Positions 31,712-56,942 of a stretch of 64,000 nucleotides of DNA are shown here, one piece after another (position 1 is the first letter of the stretch; each line of letters opens with the position of its first letter). This DNA comes from Brumimicrobium salinarum. GTDB taxonomy: Bacteria > Bacteroidota > Bacteroidia > Flavobacteriales_D > Crocinitomicaceae. The stretch covers positions 124,001 through 188,000 of the forward strand of contig NZ_PJNI01000009.1 of NCBI RefSeq assembly GCF_002844555.1, written 5' to 3'. A program made the translations under genes and the position numbers. Below the pieces are notes generated by a model. It did not search any database, was not told the DNA's origin, and worked only from the letters and a program-made list of their open reading frames with translations.

Positions 31712-32026
31712 TGGGTTACCAAGATTTGTCGGTAATTAATCACTATTTGCTAAAAGATTTCTCCATCCCAAAAATCTTTGATTTTTGGGATGATCGAAAT
31801 GACATTCACTTTAGGGTTGGTATAGGAGAAAAAGAGGAAAAGCTACGCTTTTCCTCTTTTTCTCCATCTATCTTTTCATTCCTGTCATTTCGACAGAGTC
31901 CCGAGAACTCGGGGCGACAAGAAATCTTTACAAATCATTTTAATACATGCGTTAACAATGAAAAAATTGTAATTTATCGATTACAATTCGCAACATAAAG
32001 AGTTAACTACCTATCTTGGTAACCCA
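31712..32026. repeat. MITE-like element B, copy 1
   Basis: A 315-bp element with 14-bp perfect terminal inverted repeats (TGGGTTACCAAGAT / ATCTTGGTAACCCA) and a 10-bp flanking direct repeat ATAAAGTTAA (31702-31711 and 32027-32036), as left by transposition. Inside are nested hairpins: TCCCAAAAATC/GATTTTTGGGA, GAGGAAAAGC/GCTTTTCCTC, CCCGAG/CTCGGG and AATTGTAA/TTACAATT. An open frame runs through it but is a by-product (see the rejected list). Confidence 0.9.
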
Positions 32027-46610: not shown

Positions 46611-46810
46611 CTAGCTTGTATCCAACAAAACCAACTTCATAAAGCTGCCGGTTGCCGTCGGGGTGGGAATTGAAGCTTCGGGTTTTGGTTTGTAGCCGTA
46701 GAATTACACGTCTAATTATACGCTTACAAACGCTTATTACTTTTTGATGTAAATTGTTTTTTTTTGAGTAAAAACATAGCGTTTTAAAGCTATTAATATG
46801 TTATAATTGT

Positions 46811-46864
46811 TAAATTTGAATAAAAGTTGGCTAAACGTAATACGATTAGCCAATTGTTGGCAAA
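46811..46864 (+). promoter_or_regulatory. Cassette leader B: -7 element, hairpin and core
   Basis: TAAATTTG (46811-46818), then the hairpin TTGGCTAA ... TTAGCCAA (46827-46853) and the core GTTGGCAAA (46856-46864), which is complementary (8 of 9) to TTTGCTAAC at 47656-47664. The hairpin shares 22 identical bases with the leader at 60480-60501 on the other strand. Confidence 0.7.
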
Positions 46865-46946: not shown

Positions 46947-47642
46947 ATGTTGAAGAAATCATTATTTATACTTTTAGTTGGTCTTCTAGCTTCAACTATA
47001 ACTATTGCCCAAAAAAACCGAATATCAATATATTCAGGGTTATTTCATAATTACTTTGACGGTTCTCCAATGCTTAACGTCAATTACCATTCTGATGAGT
47101 GGGGCTTTTTTAAGAATAGATTTTTTAGTTCATTTGGGATTGCATATCAAAGAAAGTTGAATTCTAAATCAAGTATTTATATTGATGTTGATTATAGGAC
47201 GAATGAATGGAAACATATATTTCCTAATTTAGAGACAAATGCAGTTCAAGCGAGGGAGAATGTTACGGCAAATCTCGGCTATAAAAGAAACTTTATGCTG
47301 TCTAAAAAATTTAACTTCATATATGGAGGAGGTATTAACTTTAGAAGGGGTCATGAATCAATCCTCGTTTCTTATGGTAAATTCATCGGTACAGATTTCT
47401 ATCATTCAAACAGTGTGTCAAGAAATGTAAATGATTTTGGTTTAAATATTAGAACCGGAATTGAGTATACTCCAGTAAAATGGTTAACATTATATTCAAA
47501 GTTTAATCTTATTGGATTTTTCTTTCTTGATGATCGAGAAACAATAGATCTTTTACAAAGAGATTACGAAGGTTACGGTTACTCTGAGTACCCCCATAGG
47601 TTTGATTTGTCTTGGCGATTTGGAGTTGGCTTTAACTTCTAA
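46947..47642 (+). CDS. Outer-membrane beta-barrel protein, cassette 2
   Basis: A 231-residue exported protein: signal peptide MLKKSLFILLVGLLASTITIAQ from the ATG at 46947, then barrel-like strands (FGIAYQRKLNSKSSIYIDVDY, NFIYGGGINFRRGHE, FDLSWRFGVGFNF, with the terminal F of outer-membrane barrels). The frame is open back to a TTG at 46827, but that part is the leader hairpin. Function unknown. Confidence 0.75.
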   Translation: MLKKSLFILLVGLLASTITIAQKNRISIYSGLFHNYFDGSPMLNVNYHSDEWGFFKNRFFSSFGIAYQRKLNSKSSIYIDVDYRTNEWKHIFPNLETNAVQARENVTANLGYKRNFMLSKKFNFIYGGGINFRRGHESILVSYGKFIGTDFYHSNSVSRNVNDFGLNIRTGIEYTPVKWLTLYSKFNLIGFFFLDDRETIDLLQRDYEGYGYSEYPHRFDLSWRFGVGFNF

Positions 47643-47655
47643 AATAAATGCACGA

Positions 47656-47732
47656 TTTGCTAACAGCAAATAAGCACAATCCCGAATCGTACCTCTCGGG
47701 ACTGTGCCTATTTGCGAGACGTTAGCTGTAAC
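47656..47732. other. attC-like site between cassettes 2 and 3
   Basis: TTTGCTAAC (47656-47664), a 20-bp stem with arms 47666-47685 and 47696-47715, an asymmetric bulge GAGAC and then GTTAGCTG (from 47721). The two imperfect stem positions are A-C on the top strand but G-T wobbles on the bottom strand, so the bottom strand folds better, as in integron attC sites. Confidence 0.55.
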
Positions 47733-47781
47733 CCCTAAACCAAAGAATACGTATTCATAAACTTAATACAACAAATTATTA

Positions 47782-48411
47782 ATGAAAAAAATAGATTTAA
47801 CTAAATGGAAAAGAAAAGAGCATTTTGATTTTTTTTCAAAAATGGCAAGTCCAACTTTCGGGATAGTTACAGAAGTTGATTGTGATGAATGCTATAAAAA
47901 TTCTAAAGAAAACGGTATATCTTTCTTTGCAAATTACCTTCATAAATCAATGATTGCAGTTAATTCTGTAGATGAACTAAAATATAGAATCGTTGATAAT
48001 GAAATAATAGAATTCGAAAAAGTTCATGCTGGAATAACTGTTGGAAGAGAAGACGAAACTTTCGGCTTTGGATTTGTTAATTTTACTTTAGATTTTGAGA
48101 CTTTTAACGCAGAATTAAAAAATGAAATTTTAGCAGTAAAAAACTGTTCAGGATTAAGACTAAATAACGATGATATTAAAAAGGATTTAATTCGTCATTC
48201 AACTATTCCATGGAATTCATTTAGCGGATTATTACATCCTACAAATTTTGACCAAAAAGAATCTGTTCCTAAAATAACATTTGGAAAGTTTACTATCCGA
48301 GAAGGAAAAAGGATGTTACCGATTTCTATAGAAGCTCATCATGGATTAGTTGATGGTTTCCACATAGCAAAATATTTAACTGAATTTCAAAATCAACTCA
48401 ATACAAAATAA
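47782..48411 (+). CDS. Chloramphenicol O-acetyltransferase-like protein (type A), cassette 3
   Basis: A 209-residue protein of the CATase family. It has the active-site motif HHGLVDGFH (HHxxxDG) near the C-terminus, N-terminal WKRKEHFDFF and the SIPWNSFSG-like STIPWNSFSGLLHP block. Trimeric CATs acetylate chloramphenicol, but many chromosomal homologues have unknown acceptors, so resistance is possible, not shown. It lies between attC-like sites, a typical place for such a gene. Confidence 0.85.
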   Translation: MKKIDLTKWKRKEHFDFFSKMASPTFGIVTEVDCDECYKNSKENGISFFANYLHKSMIAVNSVDELKYRIVDNEIIEFEKVHAGITVGREDETFGFGFVNFTLDFETFNAELKNEILAVKNCSGLRLNNDDIKKDLIRHSTIPWNSFSGLLHPTNFDQKESVPKITFGKFTIREGKRMLPISIEAHHGLVDGFHIAKYLTEFQNQLNTK

Positions 48412-48497
48412 CAATTTGCTTTTAAATATTGAATATATTTATGATTGTGTAAGCAAATTGCCTCAATGCCAGAATATGCAAATCGTTAGCGGCAACC
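48411..48497. other. attC-like site between cassettes 3 and 4
   Basis: CAATTTGC (48412-48419) can pair exactly with GCAAATTG (48453-48460) or, with one wobble on the bottom strand, with GCAAATCG (48478-48485). It is followed by the core GTTAGCGGCAACC (48485-48497). Confidence 0.5.
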
Positions 48498-48527: not shown

Positions 48528-48983
48528 ATGGACATAATCATTAGAAAAGCAACAGAAAAAGACAGTCATAAAATTTGGGTTTTAATGAAAGAATTAGCTG
48601 TTTTTGAAAAATATATTGACAGTTTTGCAATTACGCCAGAAGTTGTAAAGAACAGTGGTTTTCGGAAAAGCCCACCTGACTTTCATTGTATTGTAGCCGA
48701 AGACAACGATAAAATTGTGGGAATATTGGTCTATTATTTTTTACCTTACACTGCCCAAAACAAACCTGCAATTTATATGAAAGAACTTTATGTGGACGAA
48801 AATTATCGTGGTCGGAAAATTGGCGAACGACTGATGAACGCTTTGTGGGATGAAGCGTTGGTGCATAATTGCGAACAAATAAAATGGACGGTTGCACCTT
48901 GGAACAAAGCAGGTCAAAAATTTTATGAAAGGTTGGGTGCTAATCAAAATAATGAATGGCTAAATTACGAATGGAATTTATGA
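48528..48983 (+). CDS. GNAT family N-acetyltransferase, cassette 4 first gene
   Basis: A 151-residue acetyltransferase with the acetyl-CoA loop in YMKELYVDENYRGRKIGERLM (RxxxIG-type) and WTVAPWNKAGQKFYERLGA. The layout resembles diamine/spermidine acetyltransferases (thialysine acetyltransferase group). It overlaps the next GNAT gene by 4 bases (ATGA). Confidence 0.88.
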   Translation: MDIIIRKATEKDSHKIWVLMKELAVFEKYIDSFAITPEVVKNSGFRKSPPDFHCIVAEDNDKIVGILVYYFLPYTAQNKPAIYMKELYVDENYRGRKIGERLMNALWDEALVHNCEQIKWTVAPWNKAGQKFYERLGANQNNEWLNYEWNL

Positions 48984-49495
48984 AAATAACACGAATAACG
49001 ACCAATGAAATAGACCAATTGCAAAAAATTGGAAGACAGACTTTTTACGAAACATTTTCGACAGGTAACACCCAAGAAAACATGCAGAAATATTTAGACG
49101 AACGATTTTCCATTGAAAAGCTGACGGCTGAATTGAACGACAAAAACGCCATATTTTATTTTGTCCAACTTGAAAATAAAATTGTTGGTTATCTGAAAAT
49201 AAATTTTGGCGATTCTCAAACGGAATTAAAAGACGACAAGTCTCTTGAAATCGAAAGAATTTACGTACTTAAAGAGTTTCAAGGAAAAAAAATCGGACAA
49301 ATTCTTTATGATAAAGCAATTGAAATAGCCAAGCAGAAAGATGCAGATTATATTTGGTTAGGCGTTTGGGAAGAAAATCCAAGAGCAATCAAATTTTACA
49401 AAAAAAATGGTTTTGTAGAATTTGATAAGCACATTTTTAAACTTGGCAACGATGAGCAAACAGACATTATGATGAAACTAAAATTAACAAACTAA
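48980..49495 (+). CDS. GNAT family N-acetyltransferase, cassette 4 second gene
   Basis: A 171-residue acetyltransferase with IERIYVLKEFQGKKIGQILY (acetyl-CoA binding, QGKKIG) and LGVWEENPRAIKFYKKNGF, similar to the PaiA-type GNATs. The ATG at 48980 overlaps the previous stop by 4 bases; the upstream in-frame start at 48956 would lie inside the first GNAT. The substrate is unknown. Confidence 0.88.
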   Translation: MKITRITTNEIDQLQKIGRQTFYETFSTGNTQENMQKYLDERFSIEKLTAELNDKNAIFYFVQLENKIVGYLKINFGDSQTELKDDKSLEIERIYVLKEFQGKKIGQILYDKAIEIAKQKDADYIWLGVWEENPRAIKFYKKNGFVEFDKHIFKLGNDEQTDIMMKLKLTN

Positions 49496-49518
49496 CAAAC
49501 TAAAACGGAAGAAAAGAA

Positions 49519-49584
49519 GGCAGCCGCTAAAACAATTAAGCATCAATGAGGTCAAGTAAGGCTTGAGTTCATTGTCTTGGTGTT
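49519..49584. other. attC-like site behind cassette 4
   Basis: GCCGCTAA (49523-49530) is the exact complement of TTAGCGGC at 48486-48493 in front of the cassette. It is followed by a long imperfect hairpin: CAATGA, TCAAG (49544-49556) pairing with CTTGA, TCATTG (49562-49574), and AAG with CTT outside. Confidence 0.55.
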
Positions 49585-49627
49585 GAACTCTGCCTTTGGT
49601 GGCGGGTTCGAAGCCTAAAAAAAACTT

Positions 49628-49849
49628 TAGCATAAATACGCGCTGCTTTAACTGCGAGTATCTGTCGTAAATGGTATACAAGGGATTACGGTTGTCTGGA
49701 ATAAATGAACTTATTCTTTTTAACAAGCCATGTTTTCTCTCTAATTGCTCCAAATAAATCAAGGCTCCATCAGAACTTATCTCTTGAGCTGAAAAATCTA
49801 CTAAAACCTCCTTTTTACCTCGATAAAATACTGTATTTTTGATACTCAT
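49628..49849 (-). pseudogene. N-terminal fragment of an IS1380-like transposase
   Basis: Begins MSIKNTVFYRGKKEVLVDF, SAQEISSDGALIYLEQLERK, and follows the N-terminus of IS1380-family transposases to YDRYSQLKQRVFML. It then switches at a run of eight T (minus strand) to unrelated sequence (KFFLGFEPATKG). About 74 of 400-plus residues remain. It marks the right edge of the cassette-like block. Confidence 0.8.
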
Positions 49850-50368
49850 AATTGGGTGTGCTAAAAGTGTATGTTTTTTATGTTTAAGGACTTTAAAAAT
49901 AACACTTTGCACCCTTTTATCCTATCTTTCTATGAATTTTTCGGGTTATTTTTGTATCGTATAAAACTACCCCAAATTTGGGTATCAGTCCTTAATGTTT
50001 GAATTCTTTTGATTTTATATTTCAATTGTAATTTGTTGATATAGAATACTATTATCATCAAATCACGAATCTCATCTAAAATACAAAATAATCTCATGAA
50101 CCGAGCTTGCGAGTTCAACGAAGTTAATAATTCTATCTAACAAATTGACTAAGTTACTAAAATCAGCTATTTTATATCACAAAAGCCCCGCTACTTTAGA
50201 ATACAGGTAATATTTTGATTCACGATTTTTTTTGTCATCATTTTTGTATTGCTACGCGACAAAAATGCCGCCAAAAAGAATTATACCGATATTTATAGCC
50301 CCGCGTTGCGCTTTGCTTACACGGGGCTATAATTACTTGACACCTTCAGCGTCAGGTGTAATTCAATC
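49850..50368. repeat. Gene-free, repeat-rich stretch
   Basis: Holds a copy of the CCGAGC..GCGAG.TCAACGA...AGTTAATAAT block (50101-50129), also found as the insertion in MITE-like copy A1. It also holds the TTTTATATCACAAAAG repeat (50170-50204), a hairpin TATAGCCCCG / CGGGGCTATA (50295-50332) and a second hairpin ACACCT / AGGTGT (50341-50358). No gene seen. Confidence 0.6.
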
Positions 50369-56627: not shown

Positions 56628-56942
56628 TGGGCTAACAAGATAGGTCGTTAACTCTTTATGTTGCAAATTGTAATCGATAAATTACAATTTTTTCATTATT
56701 AACACACGTAATAAATTGATTTGTAAAGATTTCTCGTCGCCCCGAATTCTCGGGACTCTGTCGAAATGACAAGGTTGTAAAGATAGATGGAAAAAACGAG
56801 GAAAAGCTACGCTTTTCCTCGTTTTTTCCTTTACCAACTCTAAAGTGAATGTCATTTCGATCATCCCTAAAATCTTTGGTTTTTGGGATGGAGAAATCTT
56901 TTAGCAAATAGTGATTAATTACCGACTAATTTTGGTCACCCA
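56628..56942. repeat. MITE-like element B, copy 2
   Basis: Exactly 315 bp, opposite orientation to copy B1, with decayed ends (TGGGCTAACAAGAT / ...GGTCACCCA) and a decayed 10-bp flanking repeat (8 of 10). The same nested hairpins are present. Confidence 0.88.

Follow-up and report, generated by a model that had tools for sequence, protein, structure and literature searches.

The palindrome found at positions 47656-47732 of the window is very probably a recombination site with which a mobile gene cassette ends. The window is the whole stretch of DNA that was analysed, 64,000 nucleotides of a Brumimicrobium salinarum contig (NZ_PJNI01000009.1; G000:C86:124001-188000 in our numbering). We consider it highly likely that this hairpin is an attC-type site which ends a cassette in a small, integrase-less cluster, and that it belongs to an integron-like system whose tyrosine recombinase is without the additional domain of IntI. 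The original prediction had read the palindrome as attC-like. This reading is supported by independent loci, i.e. by arrays, strand bias, changed neighbours and a G|TT junction, with the correction that the A/GAGAC asymmetry represents the unpaired central spacer and not the extrahelical bases of an L box.

The palindrome has a stem of 20 bp, in which two pairs are A·C mismatches, with GCTAAC and GTTAGC ends and a 1-versus-5 spacer. On the forward strand, the R'' box GCTAAC (47659-47664) is followed by the single A of the unpaired central spacer on the R''/L'' side (47665), by the L'' arm and 5' half of the stem seen in the bottom-strand fold (47666-47685), where two positions are A·C mismatches on the top strand, and by the terminal loop (47686-47695). 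The L' arm and 3' half of the stem (47696-47715), the unpaired central spacer GAGAC on the L'/R' side (47716-47720) and the R' box GTTAGC (47721-47726) complete the structure. Among the sites with this spacer (u=1, v=5) the A is present in 50 out of 51, and a C precedes the GTT in 51 out of 51, the consensus of the longer side being RRAMC. The G|TT point at which two plasmids (L255 and L256) diverge, as described below, places the predicted crossover between G 47721 and T 47722. The features of a canonical attC, i.e. R'' ..AAC, R' GTT.., an unpaired central spacer and an L-box stem, are all present; extrahelical L-box bases are not found in the window site, as the stem has two mismatches and no bulge.

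Both strands of 47650-47735 were folded with DNA parameters. The bottom strand folded better (-22.4 kcal/mol, z -7.4) than the top strand (-17.5 kcal/mol, z -4.6), and none of 200 shuffles folded as well on either strand. The bottom-strand fold is a single closed structure, while the top-strand fold leaves the outer boxes open. The bias foreseen by the original prediction was thus reproduced, and its coordinates, stem halves, flanking boxes and spacer asymmetry were correct on re-check, as was the description of both imperfect pairs as A·C on the top and hence G·T on the bottom strand. An equal-scoring site of the same layout occurs once in 30 shuffled windows when both strands are counted, with layout and score set after the site had been seen. 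The palindrome was absent from the list of a generic repeat finder (18 pairs, exact seed of 9); in its outer arm an A·C mismatch breaks the pairing after 7 pairs. An Rfam search of the window gave no matches.

The window site is preceded by an open reading frame (46950-47642, forward strand) for a secreted or outer-membrane-like protein that has no match in Pfam or NCBIfam. The gene of the downstream cassette (47782-48411, forward strand) encodes a CatA-like O-acetyltransferase, with PF00302 above its cut-off and the NCBIfam CatA models below theirs. A second, weak or decayed site (48408-48497, forward strand) was recognized by its sequence and its R' match; it ends in GTTAGCGGCAACC, has GTTAGC at 48485-48490, and folds no better than chance (z -1.1 and -1.25). 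Two overlapping genes for GNAT acetyltransferases (48528-48983 and 48977-49495; open reading frames with Pfam PF00583) then form a possible third cassette at 48528-49495 on the same strand. The cluster has only one strong site besides the weak one and is integrase-less, as no recombinase or integrase was found beside the site in the neighbourhood examined or in the window. Its cargo consists of CatA-like and GNAT enzymes and is not an array of orphan immunity genes. A plasmid search with 891 bp of the window gave no match. We also note that the acetyltransferase genes are followed by part of a transposase of the IS1380 family (49484-49912, reverse strand), and that there are two near-identical, perfect 19-bp inverted repeats at 31825-31865 and 56789-56829. 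A short repeat of the form TTGGCTAA...TTAGCCAA occurs on the 5' side of the first cassette (46737-46860) and at several places of the genome (among them L020 18227-18496 and G000:C10:4783-4819).

Members of the same hairpin family are present elsewhere in the genome. When the element was used as a DNA query, incomplete copies were found on contig C20, with small co-oriented genes on either side. Contig C23 encodes an intact tyrosine recombinase of 348 amino acids, accompanied by a putative attI, and the first gene after it is ended by such a site. Contig C65 has three attC-like sites near recombinase fragments (L019 5262-5387, 7088-7213 and 9687-9813), perhaps a decayed second array. The inner sequences of these sites differ and the ends are common (AAC-A ... 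RRAMC-GTT); such sites were found on only 3 of the 86 contigs. IntI had been the proposed partner of the site. The partner is probably not canonical, since no protein of the genome passes the IntI cut-off, and it is likely an enzyme without the IntI additional domain. There are 12 weaker matches to IntI, with Xer proteins among them, and such matches below the cut-off are also found in 14 out of 14 control genomes.

The recombinase family is present in 118 out of 200 genomes of the window's family (E 1e-40 or better). Named genomes were scanned with an alignment of 16 recombinase sequences, which gave at least 80 loci, chosen by the recombinase alone. The loci listed are mainly from Bacteroidota (Flavobacterium, Pedobacter, Kaistella, Algoriphagus, Winogradskyella), and among the matches listed the nearest recombinase is that of Brumimicrobium aurantiacum (72% identity). 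The first naive detectors missed mismatched sites and gave counts near those of shuffles, and in the first run with scores 54 sites were counted in 27 loci versus 28.5 in shuffles. The counting was therefore redone with fixed settings and with loci picked by recombinase alone.

The loci have a common layout in which the recombinase gene is followed by about 90 nt of attI-like DNA that ends with TATA..RA-GTT, and then by co-oriented genes, each with a hairpin behind it. In the 80 loci listed, the DNA downstream of the recombinase (307,460 bp) contains 101 sites on the recombinase strand and 7 on the opposite strand; the upstream DNA (653,564 bp) contains 10 and 7, respectively, and shuffled downstream DNA 5. 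A detector that accepts only Watson-Crick pairs gave the same general picture at the same loci (61 same-strand and 5 opposite downstream, 5 and 8 upstream, a mean of 3.3 in shuffles). The bottom strand folds better in 52 out of the 61 sites found in this way, so the bottom-strand bias survives the restriction to Watson-Crick pairs. A recombinase beside a cassette array, which is the mark of an integron platform, is seen on C23 and at 28 of the 32 listed loci that have at least 3 kb downstream (20 of them with at least two sites), and not at the window site. It is also conspicuous that the contig ends within 1.5 kb downstream of the recombinase in 40 of the 80 listed loci and within 1.5 kb upstream in only 3, as assembly-breaking repeats would cause. 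Twenty further loci from a class-wide draw gave 31 same-strand and 5 opposite sites downstream and 1 and 0 upstream. Here 12 out of 20 loci had a site; seven of the eight loci in which no site was found have less than 3.4 kb downstream, and one (L211) has 15 kb.

Two Chryseobacterium plasmids (L255 and L256) illustrate how the arrays differ. Their backbone and recombinase are 86-90% identical (89.7% through the recombinase) and different genes stand behind; the identity stops at ATATAAACAAG|TT (AACAAG|TT), approximately 107 nt after the recombinase. A putative attI with a G|TT crossover is placed beside the recombinase by this one plasmid pair and by the attI-like motif TATA..RM-GTT, which occurs in 34 out of 75 loci versus 2.8 in shuffles. 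L256 has one clear site, and no convincing site was found in L255 even though its array differs from that of L256.

Cassettes also change place between genomes, as seen with the catA-like and the upstream cassettes of the window. Another species of the same genus (G027:C7) has the catA-like cassette (47734-48472) with 99.3% identity over 739 nt, behind an upstream gene and a hairpin site that differ from those of the window. Over the first 10-12 nt after GTT the two sequences do not agree, and the 3' end of the G027 cassette is cut by unrelated DNA, so that this example supports an exchange near the site and not its exact point. Homologues of the upstream gene in two other genomes (G006 and G078) keep the CACGATTTGCTAACA end and R'', with a different R' and different DNA after it. 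R'' and R' covary only weakly (e.g. 52 observed versus 39.2 expected for the second outer pair, n=101), as would be the case if R' were part of the following cassette. Among about 115 distant loci compared there were only 5 shared stretches ending near sites. Relatives thus vary in their cassettes and do not carry the palindrome as a conserved terminator in a constant setting. A conserved terminator without cassette variation was what the original prediction had named as evidence against itself, along with equal or better folding of the top strand, and neither is seen.

The distance between two catalytic boxes is 58-63 residues in 85 out of 91 recombinases and 100 in 6 out of 11 IntI proteins, the remaining proteins not matching the search pattern. 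Aligned to VchIntIA (2A3V), 60 residues of IntI stand opposite 18 of the recombinase. The additional domain (I2) that defines an IntI-type integron is absent, and the system is therefore not one. The recombinase scored 207 bits against the NCBI integron integrase model (cut-off 265) and 219.6 bits against recomb_XerA_Arch (cut-off 220), a model named 'site-specific tyrosine recombinase/integron integrase'. The family (E 1e-95 or better) is present in 84 out of 296 genomes of the window's class. In phylogenetic trees the IntI proteins group together on a long branch. In the careful tree, made of 56 out of 105 rows with long branches left out, IntI falls inside the I2-less proteins (support 95/92 and 94/91); the alternative with the I2-less proteins as one group was not rejected (AU p 0.389).

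The N-terminal domain of the recombinase (residues 1-65; L018 10554-10751) has a beta-beta-alpha-beta-beta-alpha order with invariant W39 and W46, and is possibly a reader of the hairpin. It has weak matches to DUF5710 (best E 0.0036, below cut-off). The best Foldseek match is the HARP domain of SMARCAL1 (E 0.77; HARP in a profile search, E 1.4), and VIA-align found nothing above Z 4.5, so that these searches establish no relative. In L072 the recombinase is without this domain. An Rfam Flavo-1 RNA (L018 10350-10421, reverse strand, 48.3 bits) lies directly upstream of the recombinase gene.

The best sequence and fold matches of the recombinase core are archaeal Xer proteins. XerA and the archaeal Xer proteins resolve chromosome dimers at double-stranded dif sites; they differ from the present system in that they are not known to have cassette arrays. 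It is conceivable that the arrays are real and that the recombinase acts on double-stranded DNA like Xer, the hairpin serving for transcription end or protection or being a relic. The solved structures nearest to the enzyme are indeed those of archaeal Xer proteins, and the enzyme is without the I2 helix, which in a passage of PMC7790495 is held to be necessary for cassette capture and to occur in no other protein. Yet the hairpin is kept across sites with little common inner sequence, the bottom strand is favoured in most of them, and R'' and R' are by themselves not long or constant enough to make the usual double-strand core. We therefore regard an Xer-like action as improbable.

Judged from the sequence, the system appears to behave like an integron and the site like an attC. 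The IntI integrons (class 1, Vibrio and other chromosomal ones) have in common with it a tyrosine recombinase, an attI with G|TT, co-oriented cassettes, and attC sites with R and L boxes, an unpaired central spacer, a bottom-strand bias and hybrid R' boxes. At 12 canonical IntI loci, 17 out of 21 sites lie upstream on the opposite strand, as in known integrons, whereas at the I2-less loci the sites are 3' of the recombinase gene and on its own strand. In both kinds of locus the central spacer has a short R'' side and an R' side of 5-6 nt. A more pronounced difference is found in the stems. At IntI loci at least one bulged base is present in 28 out of 28 array-side sites and two in 24, whereas the majority of sites at I2-less loci have no extrahelical bases: bulge-free stems occur in 64 out of 107 sites versus 0 out of 28 (Fisher p 6.6e-10) and, at a higher cut-off, in 42 out of 61 versus 0 out of 10 (Fisher p 4.3e-5). 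The background of this run is high (37 sites elsewhere versus 28 on the array side at IntI loci, and 110 elsewhere versus 107 at I2-less loci), so that part of the counted sites are due to chance. The run replaced a strict search for bulge-free helices, in which IntI loci yielded 2 array-side sites and 6 elsewhere, too few to compare. The I2 helix reads the extrahelical bases in the VchIntIA structure, and a passage of PMC7790495 is consistent with this role. The joint loss of the I2 helix and of the extrahelical bases is the most telling feature of the system.

The comparison also bears on whether the window site could be an ordinary attC of canonical IntI integrons that was acquired elsewhere, the co-occurring recombinase being unrelated. 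R boxes, spacer sizes and site lengths do resemble those at canonical IntI loci, and canonical IntI occurs in 85 out of 296 genomes of a phylum draw. We nevertheless find this quite unlikely, because the genome has no protein above the IntI cut-off and IntI is present in only 1 out of 296 genomes drawn from the class, because it is the other recombinase behind which the sites cluster, and because the window stem is bulge-free, which none of the array-side sites at IntI loci is. That the hairpin is a transcription terminator or a chance palindrome is hardly credible: it does sit between two co-oriented genes, but the stem is followed by GAGACGTTAGCTGTAACCCC and not by a T-run, and a terminator scan of the window did not call it, which together rule out an intrinsic terminator, while equal sites are rare in shuffled windows and the hairpin family recurs with the same asymmetric spacer and with changed neighbours.

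Another system that invites comparison is the recombinase-associated acquired interbacterial defence (rAID) cluster. In the text of PMC12247911 concerned with these clusters of gut Bacteroidales, they are described as having a predicted tyrosine recombinase, co-oriented short or immunity genes and conserved intergenic motifs, and the way in which they gain genes is called an 'area of active research'. On a Parabacteroides distasonis plasmid (NZ_OY725747.1; L257 9704-18157) we observed a rAID-like cluster of immunity-like genes parted by TAACAA...CCATTA hairpins. Its recombinase is 43.5% identical and has a 61-residue segment between the catalytic boxes, hence no additional domain. Three hairpins were folded; one clearly favours the bottom strand and two do not. 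Unlike the sites described above, those of L257 are about 50 nt long, end in ATTA instead of GTTA and were missed by the detector used, and rAID cargo consists mostly of immunity genes. The comparison suggests a common system, of which rAID clusters would be a gut branch. As to the enzymes, Smyshlyaev et al. (2021; PMC8138268) describe an 'integron-like' subgroup of tyrosine recombinases in which the insertion is not fully conserved; in the passages on this subgroup, the members without it are not tied to cassette arrays or attC sites. In the open-access literature, with subscription papers and most preprints outside, we found no paper that joins integrases without the additional domain to cassette arrays.

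For the I2-less system we suggest a recombination of single strands with a G|TT crossover, in which the bottom strand of the site would fold when single-stranded and protomers of the recombinase would sit on the R and L boxes in their paired form. A cut of one strand at G|TT may then be followed by its joining to attI or to another attC, and by analogy with known integrons replication would resolve the product. The choice of strand would probably come from the A/RRAMC spacer and from those mismatches which on the bottom strand turn into wobble pairs, because the enzyme has no bulge-reading helix and most sites have no bulges. The window site may be used in trans by the C23 recombinase, or may have been left by earlier events.

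It seems that a common bacterial group runs a version of the integron that standard searches miss. Surveys in which the IntI domain is a requirement (passages of PMC9024848, PMC9668308, PMC2426708) would miss the loci or call them integrase-less; with IntegronFinder 2.0, one complete integron is reported for Bacteroidetes proper. A wider reading, which we put forward tentatively and hold to be rather less probable than its opposite, is that true integrons have a second lineage, which is common in Bacteroidia, takes in the gut rAID clusters, and recombines a folded single-stranded attC without I2 helix or extrahelical bases. If so, hairpin cassettes would be older than IntI, and the latter would have descended from this lineage, with I2 being added while the sites gained bulges. 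Missing intermediates are given in a passage of PMC7790495 as one reason why the origin of the integron integrase could not be traced; a recombinase that is without I2 and yet has cassettes, an attI and mostly bulge-free attC sites of its own would either be an intermediate of this kind or represent a solution reached independently. The system would also give a mechanism for the gain of immunity genes by gut rAID clusters, and would add plasmid-borne cassette platforms in Chryseobacterium.

Other mobile elements were observed at some of the loci. A Flagellimonas marinaquae plasmid (NZ_CP092416.1) has, on the minus strand, an attC-like site of 123 nt that comes right after a gene of the dihydrofolate reductase family (L258 7914-8589), and erm(F) beside a xerA-type recombinase; no array was seen on it. 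An IS91-family transposase with a tyrosine recombinase of its own is repeatedly present among the cassettes (L018 12549-14561; L255 15966-17908). At three loci (L248 8670-8760, L018 16210-16273 and L256 20700-22580) the TAA of an R'' box is followed by DNA that carries one and the same group II intron end, as if introns targeted these sites. In Rfam, the intron of L256 was supported, that of L248 reached 39.8 bits (cut-off 40) and that of L018 was not supported. Targeting of attC sites is known from group IIC introns.
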